Positions 37,197 to 44,352 of a stretch of 58,722 bases of DNA are shown piece after piece; the stretch's first letter is position 1; each line of letters starts with the position of its first letter. The position numbers and the translations under genes are program-made. The DNA is from Lysobacterales bacterium (lineage in GTDB: Bacteria; Pseudomonadota; Gammaproteobacteria; Xanthomonadales; SZUA-36): the NCBI GenBank assembly GCA_013042915.1, contig JABDPF010000029.1, forward strand, positions 1 through 58,722, in the 5' to 3' direction. The notes beneath the pieces were generated by a model. The model searched no databases. It saw nothing but the letters and a program-made list of their open reading frames with translations, and was not told the DNA's origin.

Positions 37197-37570
37197 ACGT
37201 TATCGCCTGCAATTTTGGGCCTTAAAACAGTTATTGGCGAAACTGCAGTTAGTGGCTGTTTCTAGATCTAAACGCGCCGCTCTTGGTCGCAGGCGGAGAT
37301 TATTACCATCAAAAGGACTTTTTAGTAACTTCGGAAATCTGGCAAAAAGCAGTCGTTGGGTCACTCGTGCTATCCCCAGATATTTTTCAAAAATTATTCA
37401 GAAACCGGCGTTTATCAGGTTGCCACTTTTAGGCAGGCAGGCGAATGCTGTGCGAGGGGTGCGGGGAACAATGAATCAAATACCAAACTTCAACCAACTA
37501 TCAGGCCGACTACAGAATAAACTCCCATAAAGAAAAGGCCTCGCGCTTTCACGCAAGGCCTTAATTTGTT
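37197..37570. other. AT-rich gene-free stretch before tRNA-Asn
   Basis: Apart from the tRNA terminator at its right end, I find no supported gene here. A 98-codon frame (37234-37530) begins with TTG, has no ribosome site and gives a low-complexity basic product, so I reject it. The base composition is markedly lower in GC than the surrounding genes. Confidence 0.6.
37529..37562 (-). terminator. Rho-independent terminator of tRNA-Asn
   Basis: On the minus strand the hairpin AAGGCCT / AGGCCTT (with an added GCG/CGC pair set and loop TGAAAG) is followed by TTTTCTTT. It lies eight bases beyond the CCA end of the tRNA gene. Confidence 0.88.
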
Positions 37571-37647
37571 TGGCTCCCCAGCACGGACTCGAACCGCGGA
37601 CCTAGTGATTAACAGTCACCCGCTCTAACCAGCTGAGCTACTGGGGA
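37571..37647 (-). tRNA. tRNA-Asn (GTT)
   Basis: A full cloverleaf is readable: acceptor TCCCCAG / CTGGGGA, D arm GCTCAGCTGGTTAGAGC, anticodon arm GGTGA-CTGTTAA-TCACT with anticodon GTT, variable loop AGGTC, T arm CGCGG-TTCGAGT-CCGTG, discriminator G and encoded CCA. The length is 77 bases. Confidence 0.97.
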
Positions 37648-39717: not shown

Positions 39718-41733
<2,016 letters not shown>

Positions 41734-41854
41734 AGAAAACTTAGGCCCGGATTAACCACTCCTTATGGATCGATAAACAAATATAAATGCATGTAAAACA
41801 TCAGCTTAAAAGCACATAACACTTCCTTTAATACCCGCCTAACCACGACCTTCT

Positions 41855-41860
41855 TACAAT
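41855..41860 (+). promoter_or_regulatory. -10-like element before leader RNA
   Basis: TACAAT at 41855-41860 would place a transcription start near 41867, exactly where the folded leader begins. The -35 side is poor. Confidence 0.4.
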
Positions 41861-41866
41861 GGAGTC

Positions 41867-41947
41867 AGCTGAGAGGAGAACCCGGAATACCGGGGTCGAA
41901 GCAGGTTTTGAGGTTCAACAAAGCGTTGCTCTCAGCAGCGCTTTTTT
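41867..41947 (+). ncRNA. Candidate leader RNA or small RNA with terminator and competing pairing
   Basis: An 80-base RNA is proposed. It holds a small hairpin (CCCGG-AATA-CCGGG, 41881-41894) and an 11-base terminator stem (AAAGCGTTGCT 41920-41930 / AGCAGCGCTTT 41934-41944) with a T-run to 41947. GCTGAGAG at 41868-41875 is fully complementary to CTCTCAGC at 41929-41936, which lies in the terminator loop and stem, so the two pairings exclude each other. This is the layout of an attenuator, a riboswitch or a small RNA. It matches no riboswitch class I can recall. Confidence 0.45.
41920..41947 (+). terminator. Rho-independent terminator upstream of a lipoprotein gene
   Basis: Stem AAAGCGTTGCT / AGCAGCGCTTT with loop CTC, one G-U pair, followed by a run of T. 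It lies 48 bases before the start of the lipoprotein gene at 41995. Confidence 0.8.
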
Positions 41948-41994
41948 GTTTGCAGCCGGCCTGGGCCTCAGCGGAACCAATCAAGGAGATTGTC

Positions 41995-42468
41995 ATGAAA
42001 ACCATCTACAAGGCAGCAGTGGTACTGGGAAGCGCCGCGCTGCTGGCCGCCTGCTCTCCGGGGATGTACACCGGTGGCGGTTGGGCGGAATCGGCAGGCG
42101 CCGTTGATCAGAAAGCCAGTTTCAGCTTCAGCGTAGAGAGCTGTAGCGCGGGCTACATGGGTCATTTCAGCCTGAACGACGAGGGCTGGGATATTCCGGT
42201 AGAAATCAGCGGACACGTGCTGGATTTTGGCGAACTCGGTGATTTCGGTGACAACTGCAACTTTTACGCCCTGCTCGAATACAGCTCCGCCAACCCCGAC
42301 TACCCGGGCGAAGGCCACGCCGTGGTCTGTTTCGGAAACGATTCCGAGGCGGCCCAGGCTTCGATGCACGGCAATATCTGGGTCACCGTCCAGAGCGGCC
42401 CGTTCGAGGCCTACGAAAACTACGGACCGATTTACAGTTCCATCCAGTCACACCAGTGTGACACCTGA
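41995..42468 (+). CDS. Predicted lipoprotein, unknown function
   Basis: A 157-residue protein with a lipobox (LGSAALLAAC, Cys20). The mature part is Ser/Gly/aromatic-rich: SFSFSVESCSAGYMGHFSLN, VEISGHVLDFGELGDFGDNC, EGHAVVCFGNDSEAAQASMH. Four Cys after the lipid Cys suggest disulfides. I recognise no family. The ATG at 41995 has AAGGAGA upstream. An in-frame ATG at 41908 would add a second, Sec-like signal, but it lies inside the terminator leader and is probably not used. Confidence 0.78.
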   Translation: MKTIYKAAVVLGSAALLAACSPGMYTGGGWAESAGAVDQKASFSFSVESCSAGYMGHFSLNDEGWDIPVEISGHVLDFGELGDFGDNCNFYALLEYSSANPDYPGEGHAVVCFGNDSEAAQASMHGNIWVTVQSGPFEAYENYGPIYSSIQSHQCDT

Positions 42469-42471
42469 CAT

Positions 42472-44352
42472 TCAGGAATCTCCACTGGCCGCGGCGTAGT
42501 CCGCGGCCAGTCCCAACTTTCTCATCATCGAGCGTTTCTTGGACTGGTGATCCTGCATACGGTGCAGGATGTCGTTCAGCGTGCGCACGGCGTCCTGCAC
42601 GTAAGGCCCCTTGTTTAGCATCACGCACTCGGCTGACTGGCCGATGGCGGCATCGGTGATCTCGGCGCGGCTGGCGTGGCCCCGCTTGGTCAAGCCCTCC
42701 AAGACCTGGGTCGCCCAGATCACCGGAACGTGCGCCGCCTCGCAGATCCACAGGATCTCCTCCTGCAATTCGGCCATGCGCTCGAAGCCGCACTCGGCGG
42801 CCAGGTCACCGCGGGCGATCATCACCCCGCAGGCCGGAAACTCCAGGGCCTGAAGGATAATGTCAGGCAGGTTGTGGAACCCGCGCCGGGTTTCGATCTT
42901 GATCACGACTCCGACTTCCTCGTGACCCATGTCGACCAACCGCTGCCGAAGCTCCGCGACGTCATCGGGCGTGTTCGTGAAAGACAGGCCGATCATGTCG
43001 GCGTGCGCCGCCACGAAAGGTAATTCGGCGACGTCTTCGGCGCTCAGGGCGGGCAGGTCAAGCGGGGTATCGGGCAGGTTAACGCCCTTGTCCGAACCCA
43101 GTTTCTCGAGGGGCTTGCGGGTGTGGTCGATGCGAACCCGCAGACGATCCGTTTGGCGCTTGTCGATGATTCCGCTGATGCGGCCGTCATCGAAGCCGAT
43201 GCGGTCGCCGGGACGGGCGTCGCGGTAGACTTCGGGTATCGGCAGCGATACCCGGCCCGGTCTCAGCTGGGCGCCGTCGTCCCCGATGAGCGCGGCTCGG
43301 CCCGGTTTCTCGGTGTTGACCAGCTGAAGGTAATCGCTGTGGCGGAGGTGGATTATGCTCTCGCGTTCCGGCAGGTTGTCGGTGATGCATTCGACTGCCT
43401 TACCTTTCAGCACCAGGCGGGTGTTTGCGGTCACGTAGGTCGTTTTCCTGGCAGCAGCCCAACAGCCGCTGTCACCGACCTCGACAATTCGCCAGCGCCG
43501 CTTGGAGCCACGCGCGTCCTTGAGCCGAACCGTGTCACCCGCCTCGCATTGCGACAGCCATGCCCGTGGCACGGACAGGCAGGCGTCGGCGGAGTCGCAT
43601 TCCTTGCCCTGGCCGGGTTCGGCGGTCAGCCAGATGCGCGCAGGGCGCACGATCTCACCGTATTCGTTGCGCCGCGGACGGATTTTCATGACCGGGGCGG
43701 CGGGCTCCATCGGTCCGCTGCGCATCTTCGGGCCGCGCAGGTCCATCAGGACACGGCACGATCGTTTCATCACCCGCTCGGCGTGCGCTTTTTGCTTGAT
43801 CATCCGCGCCCAGCTGTCGGGGTCGCCGTGGGCGCAGTTGATACGCAGGCAGTCCATGCCGCCCTCGACCAGCCGGTGCAGCATCATGTAATCGTCGGCC
43901 GCGTTTTCGGGCATGGTCACCATGATCCGGGCCCGGCGTTGGCTCGGAGGATCGCCGAGCAGGGCAGCCGTGTTGTGCTCGAGGCGCGCAGAGAGATCGC
44001 CGGGGCCACCAAGCGAAGCGGCCCGCCTGGTATCCGGTGAGACCTGTCCGCTCAACAGGTAAAGGTTGTGGAGGACGGCCTCGAGGGTGGCCAGCACGTT
44101 GGATTCCGCACGTCCCAGCGAGGAGAGACCCAATCGGGCCAGTTGCTCCTGCTCCGATCGCAGATCATGGCGCCTGAGGGCGAGGTAGTGCAGCAAGTTC
44201 CGGGCGCTGGCCCGGCGGGCTTCGGGGAGCCTGTCGATGCGTTCTGCGTGGGAGTCGGCAATACGTACCGCGTCGTCGCACAGGAATTTCAGCCTGGCGA
44301 TCAGCGCATCGAAAGCATCCCGCGGCTGTCCGCGGCTCTCTGCGATACCCAT
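42472..44352 (-). CDS. Pyruvate-kinase-barrel protein with novel N-terminal helical domain
   Basis: A 626-residue protein. Residues about 140-600 are a pyruvate kinase barrel: RIMVTMPENAADDYMML, LRINCAHGDPDSWARMI, LMDLRGPKMRSG, the catalytic strand VGVVIKIETRRGFHNLP, VMIARGDLAAECGFERM and HVPVIWATQVLEGLTKRG. The usual C-terminal allosteric domain is missing and replaced by a short helical tail. Residues 1-110 form a helical domain (RNLLHYLALRRHDLRSEQEQ, LGLSSLGRAESNVLATLEA) not found in normal PykA or PykF. It may be a diverged kinase or a regulatory protein. Confidence 0.8.
   Translation of the reverse strand: MGIAESRGQPRDAFDALIARLKFLCDDAVRIADSHAERIDRLPEARRASARNLLHYLALRRHDLRSEQEQLARLGLSSLGRAESNVLATLEAVLHNLYLLSGQVSPDTRRAASLGGPGDLSARLEHNTAALLGDPPSQRRARIMVTMPENAADDYMMLHRLVEGGMDCLRINCAHGDPDSWARMIKQKAHAERVMKRSCRVLMDLRGPKMRSGPMEPAAPVMKIRPRRNEYGEIVRPARIWLTAEPGQGKECDSADACLSVPRAWLSQCEAGDTVRLKDARGSKRRWRIVEVGDSGCWAAARKTTYVTANTRLVLKGKAVECITDNLPERESIIHLRHSDYLQLVNTEKPGRAALIGDDGAQLRPGRVSLPIPEVYRDARPGDRIGFDDGRISGIIDKRQTDRLRVRIDHTRKPLEKLGSDKGVNLPDTPLDLPALSAEDVAELPFVAAHADMIGLSFTNTPDDVAELRQRLVDMGHEEVGVVIKIETRRGFHNLPDIILQALEFPACGVMIARGDLAAECGFERMAELQEEILWICEAAHVPVIWATQVLEGLTKRGHASRAEITDAAIGQSAECVMLNKGPYVQDAVRTLNDILHRMQDHQSKKRSMMRKLGLAADYAAASGDS

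Follow-up and report, generated by a model that had tools for sequence, protein, structure and literature searches.

The 5' leader of a lipoprotein gene in a Lysobacterales bacterium contains an intrinsic terminator on the same strand as the gene and near its start codon, and for transcripts starting near 41852-41868, and for these only, folding predicts a mutually exclusive structure of comparable stability. We interpret the leader tentatively, with a probability of about 0.45, as a lineage-specific transcription attenuator acting in cis, i.e. a conditional terminator. It resembles an ordinary switch, and as it comes from a single genome with no relative found it is an unconfirmed candidate. 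The window, by which we mean the whole stretch of DNA analysed, comprises 58,722 nucleotides with a GC content of 0.62 and belongs to a genome of 2.69 Mb in 105 contigs. Within it uvrB (39718-41733, plus strand; UvrB domains identified by Pfam) is followed by the leader, by the gene for a 157-aa lipoprotein (41995-42468, plus strand) and by a convergent pyruvate-kinase-like gene (42472-44352, minus strand; PF00224 barrel). By eye, the lipoprotein has the lipobox LAAC, and a Shine-Dalgarno-like AAGGAGA (41983-41989) lies 5 nt before its ATG at 41995.

The terminator occupies 41920-41950 of the plus strand. Its stem has 11 pairs, formed by 41920-41930 with 41934-41944 around a loop of 3 nt and followed by the T-rich tail TTTGTTTG, with a calculated stability of -14.0 to -14.6 kcal/mol; a strong terminator upstream of the lipoprotein gene had been proposed in the earlier note, and a terminator is indeed present there. 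The stem is separated by 50 nt from the lipoprotein ATG, whose strand it shares, and by 186 nt from the uvrB stop codon upstream. It therefore passes a published filter for candidate attenuators, which asks for the same strand, a distance of at most 300 nt from the start codon and a nearer downstream gene (PMC2965389).

Scanning the window with a limit of -8 kcal/mol gave six terminator-like sites. Besides that in the leader, two lie 51 and 23 nt 3' of plus-strand open reading frames (18969 and 29409), two lie within long open frames, and one lies just 3' of tRNA-Asn (GTT; 37535-37647, minus strand), which is thus followed by its own strong terminator. Given the terminators found 3' of other genes in the window, intrinsic terminators of this kind seem to be used by this genome. 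The leader hairpin might then simply be an unregulated terminator for transcripts of uvrB, or of the added stretch that follows it, in which case the complementarity described below would be due to chance and the lipoprotein gene would live on read-through or on an unrecognised promoter. It is the sole terminator-like site found 3' of uvrB here, in keeping with such a role. Yet it stands 186 nt from the uvrB stop codon, compared with 51 and 23 nt for the two other terminators that follow open frames, and in 28 of 29 relatives there is no terminator-like site within 500 nt 3' of uvrB (166 nt only for one of the 28), so that uvrB is not usually followed by one. We consider this simple role somewhat unlikely.

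The competing fold begins with GCTGAGAG (41868-41875), which is a perfect 8-base complement of CTCTCAGC (41929-41936), the terminator loop and its flanks. It had been claimed that this complement would break the terminator stem. The complement is indeed perfect and forms part of the antiterminator, but alone it reaches just 2 nt into the terminator 5' arm and 3 nt into the 3' arm, besides covering the loop. Folding reveals a second pairing, absent from the earlier note, between 41901-41910 and the terminator 5' arm at 41919-41929; this is the stronger half, and a working antiterminator needs it in addition to the 8-bp pairing. The result is a three-way junction. P1 is formed by 41868-41874 with 41930-41936, P2 is the hairpin CCCGG-AAUA-CCGGG (41878-41897), and P3 (41901-41929) pairs 41901-41910 with 41919-41924 and 41926-41929. 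P3 occupies all of the terminator 5' arm bar its last base; this base pairs in P1, as do the loop and part of the 3' arm. A Shine-Dalgarno-like GAGGAGA is found at 41873-41879 in the P1 strand; by eye there is no suitably spaced ATG, GTG or TTG.

The minimum-energy fold of the RNA 41867-41946 is the P1/P2/P3 junction (-28.3 kcal/mol) and not the terminator, while with two more bases in the RNA the terminator fold (-28.4) is ahead by 0.4 kcal/mol. For starts near 41852-41868 only, the two are thus predicted to be equally stable within error. The probabilities calculated are likewise equilibrium values, not kinetic ones. When the transcript ends at 41940 the alternative fold has a probability of 0.97-0.99 for all four starts tested. 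The RNA 41867-41946 forms the terminator with a probability of 0.34, and for starts at 41860 or 41867 with five ends from 41944 to 41952 this ranges from 0.23 to 0.68. Once the end is at 41956 or beyond, the terminator reaches 0.96-1.0 whatever the start, for all start-end pairings tested but one (0.93-0.95 in the longer RNAs). The decision between the folds would therefore have to occur with the polymerase on the U tract. With starts at 41734 or 41839 and the 3' arm complete the terminator has a probability of 0.93-1.0, and the value of 0.95-1.0 for transcripts from just after uvrB agrees with an unregulated terminator there. A third layer was considered, in which 41850-41856 would pair with 41870-41876 and hide the P1 strand in longer RNAs as an anti-antiterminator; this is not specific, as the terminator is no less probable in 460 of 500 shuffles of 41839-41866. 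What the in silico analysis shows is that two folds exist, that they are nearly equal in energy when the RNA starts near 41852-41868, in which order they form at equilibrium, and that they lie in front of the lipoprotein gene.

Transcription of the leader, and regulated termination within it, are inferred. A polymerase in the leader would first make the P1/P2/P3 junction, which uses the terminator 5' arm and loop. As the 3' arm emerges, either the junction would be kept and the polymerase would read on into the lipoprotein gene, or the RNA would refold into the terminator and transcription would stop at about 41945-41950. The balance could be tipped by an RNA-binding protein, a metabolite, the speed of the polymerase or the choice of start site, and anything that stabilised P1 would turn the lipoprotein gene on.

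We have assessed how readily such an arrangement arises by chance. An 8-mer perfectly complementary to the terminator turned up within the upstream 52 nt in 0.6% of 1000 dinucleotide-shuffled sequences and in 1.2% of 1000 random 52-mers from the window. When the upstream 52 nt were shuffled 1000 times, 0.8% of the results gave an alternative fold at least as good, and for 1000 random 52-mers of the window the figure was 1.9%. The terminator probability fell to 0.34 or below in 17 of 1000 shuffles. The whole 141-nt stretch is modestly more stable than its shuffles (z of -1.94; 10 of 200 at least as stable). Both the position of the leader and the comparison of its folds with two nulls support the terminator/antiterminator logic put forward previously. 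For a find made post hoc, nulls of 1-2% are not extreme, which leaves room for an unregulated terminator with fortuitous complementarity.

We extended the comparison to 366,275 bases of this genome, in which 41 terminator-like hairpins reach -10 kcal/mol or better (five of them counted on both strands), using three upstream lengths and counting an energy gap of zero between the folds at any one of them. For the leader the gap is 0.0 at an upstream length of 53 nt only, rising to 2.0 at 70 nt and 4.2 at 40 nt. A zero gap was found at five of the 41 sites including the leader, the other four being weaker and perhaps not terminators. Among the 27 hairpins at or beyond -14 kcal/mol, a cutoff that is the leader hairpin's own energy and was set afterwards (weaker stems balance more easily), the leader is the one case of a zero gap, the next gap being 3.0. 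Since complementarity was the reason for singling out this feature, the rarity of the balanced fold is suggestive but does not decide the matter.

The start of transcription is critical for the attenuator. The sequence TACAAT is present at 41855-41860, and a transcript beginning at 41867 and ending in the U tract at 41946 would have the length of 80 nt given previously. As a promoter, however, this predicted -10-like element is weak: its best -35 partner is the poor TACCCG, and sites scoring as well turn up 2.5 times per kb of the plus strand. These scores come from a simple in-house sigma70 matrix and refer to sigma70 only. The best site of the region is predicted to be TTAAAA-15-TTTAAT (41806-41832, plus strand; elements at 41806 and 41827), with a score found at 0.22 per kb and equalled at 13 sites on the window plus strand, while a stricter consensus scan of 41500-42300 gave no site. 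Transcripts from TTAAAA-15-TTTAAT would start near 41839, from where the terminator is dominant at equilibrium, unlike the starts at about 41852-41868 that the balanced folds need. Between the terminator and the ATG no sigma70-like site stands out, the best being of a quality seen 20 times per kb. Lipoprotein transcripts therefore probably cross the terminator. Were the hairpin a plain terminator of upstream transcripts, no recognisable promoter would remain for the lipoprotein gene itself. Control by a leader peptide was also considered and rejected: an open frame of 82 codons begins with the ATG at 41859, but no Shine-Dalgarno sequence is seen by eye in front of it.

A usual layout of a small RNA is a hairpin, a less structured middle and a terminator with a U run. 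The leader has all of these, with a run of U6, and could give an independent trans-acting RNA of about 80-110 nt, driven by the TACAAT or the TTTAAT site and ending in the U tract. The upstream region 41734-41850 is low in GC (0.38) and includes the best predicted promoter-like site (41806-41832), which fits with such a transcript. Nevertheless there is no matching Rfam family and no second copy or credible homologue, and the lipoprotein gene would again lack a recognisable promoter; we regard an independent small RNA as unlikely. Such an RNA and attenuation would not exclude one another, since 5' leaders can also yield small RNAs (PMC7815308).

A different possibility is that part of the hairpin is coding. 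In the lipoprotein frame, 41908-41994 reads LRFNKALLSAALFCLQPAWASAEPIKEIV, which could mark a start upstream of ATG 41995 as the true one, or a relic gene. By a simple rule this reading resembles a Sec signal, ending in ASA before EPIKEIV, as do 1.5% of 5000 shuffles, and its GC content by codon position (0.48/0.45/0.66) leans towards coding. But 47% of shuffles contain an open in-frame stretch at least 29 codons long, ATG 41995 has AAGGAGA 5 nt upstream and, by eye, its own lipobox signal, and two signal peptides in tandem make little sense. Moreover, in an alignment from which the longer version was left out, the N termini of two homologues, with MK and a lipobox, coincide with that of the ATG 41995 version. 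We find a coding role quite improbable, and take the signal-like reading of 41908-41994 as chance or a relic.

The leader and the lipoprotein gene lie in a stretch of 738 nt (41734-42471) between uvrB and the pyruvate-kinase-like gene, with a GC content of 0.54 compared with 0.60 for uvrB and 0.62 for the window. The kinase-like gene adjoins uvrB tail to tail at three of the 29 uvrB loci of relatives (L024, L026 and L027), with stop-to-stop gaps of just 4, 26 and 10 nt, respectively, and the 738-nt stretch is missing between the two genes in all three. Nor was any lipoprotein match found in 1200 nt 3' of uvrB in the 29 relatives (166 nt only for one). The adjacent genes in the three relatives argue that leader and lipoprotein gene were added in the present lineage, and loss in the three relatives appears less likely. 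In 41600-42600 there are no direct repeats, and none of three inverted pairs frames the added stretch. The pyruvate-kinase-like protein has 626 aa, with a long N-terminal part without Pfam match in addition to the PF00224 barrel. A search of genome contigs with it gave eight loci at 43-54% identity and no close relative; these are in metagenome-assembled genomes labelled Binatus, delta- and betaproteobacteria, Propionibacterium and others.

The lipoprotein is rare: a profile finds it in one of 39 genomes of the family (its own) and in two of 398 in the order sample, its own and G338. Six matches at E <= 0.01 were obtained in the order sample, comprising itself, L055 of G338, L054, L056, L057 and L058, and L055 was shown to be a homologue. 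The profile, which contains the G338 protein itself, added no further genome, and a class sample of 369 genomes held the lipoprotein of the present genome only. Pattern scans of genome and viral contigs confirmed no relative, and a plasmid search gave one record, the same whether the window protein or L055 was the query. The homologues in G338 (L055, 1150-1728) and on a Pseudoalteromonas donghaensis plasmid (L059, 1141-1722) are 27% and 30% identical to the window lipoprotein, respectively. Together the three have 31 invariant columns of 214, with the family positions GG...S-G...KA and Y-S-NP--PG-G...GP---Y-N-G......Q-H-C, and two of them that were scanned gave sub-cutoff matches to NCBIfam post-COAP-1 (E of 0.013 and 0.12). 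Both distant homologues lie directly upstream of a gene for an S8 (subtilisin-like) peptidase, annotated in L059 and recognised by eye in L055; the window lipoprotein has no such neighbour. Neither homologue is preceded by a leader terminator within 400 nt, which weighs against attenuation.

We have also sought relatives of the leader. BLAST against its own genome gave the window itself and a 24-base chance match, with no second copy. Across 60 relatives and this genome, short matches (E <= 1) occurred in 42 of 61; the best outside match (34 bases in L003, 1.9e-4) lies by eye inside an open frame resembling a GHMP-type kinase, and the remainder are taken as chance, that in L003 being the only one inspected. 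The 1200 nt 3' of uvrB in the 29 relatives gave blastn matches of 11-18 bases only, and among phages and plasmids only the terminator stretch was matched (31-36 bases, E of 0.07-0.9). A covariance model built from the single sequence gave a match in L089 (E of 0.04) among the 39 family genomes, its own included, but by eye this lies in a flavoprotein-like gene and was rejected, leaving no credible homologue in the 38 others; with stricter filters nothing else was found at E <= 0.01 in the order sample (398 genomes, 397 of them others). With no credible homologue there is no covariation, which counts against an attenuator and, as far as the data extend, is the outcome that the earlier note had named as refuting its proposal. 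However, the relatives searched also lack the lipoprotein gene, with the exception of G338, so that the missing conservation tests little. The relatives covered by BLAST and the family genomes covered by the covariance model include no member of the same genus. At Rfam gathering thresholds the window has no match except a tRNA at 37574-37647, and a permissive search of 41700-42100 gave a single hit of 11.4 bits against a cutoff of 49, at 41965-41997. General literature searches returned nothing on this leader RNA, which may still be in print. Of the original proposal, the switch logic and the lack of fit to a known RNA family are supported; a ligand-binding aptamer, the TACAAT start and conservation in relatives are not.

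In some riboswitches a P1-closed junction is combined with a terminator platform. Here there is no Rfam match and no conserved core, and the gene encodes an uncharacterised lipoprotein; what is shared is a P1 that closes a two-hairpin junction and has bases in common with the terminator. That the leader is an orphan riboswitch-like ON switch, recently acquired with the lipoprotein gene and sensing a ligand or an envelope signal through P1/P2/P3, seems to us most improbable.

If real, the attenuator would add to the regulatory RNAs that arise in one lineage along with an added gene, and it would offer a bistable terminator that is small and easily tested. The general picture of attenuation would be unchanged, as thousands of 5' terminators have already been predicted, 15,930 in 302 genomes (PMC2965389). 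The mobile attenuators described in the same paper differ from the present case, which has no framing repeats and no second genomic copy and where no insertion-sequence gene was noticed; like them, the leader terminator was possibly carried in with the added stretch, before the gene. Compared with the 5' leader terminators of Naville and Gautheret (2010, PMC2965389), ours is found in one genome and the gene is not of a family that frequently bears them. Such terminators tend to be weak, according to the same paper, and in its low stability, as in position, orientation and the presence of an exclusive fold, the leader terminator is like them.
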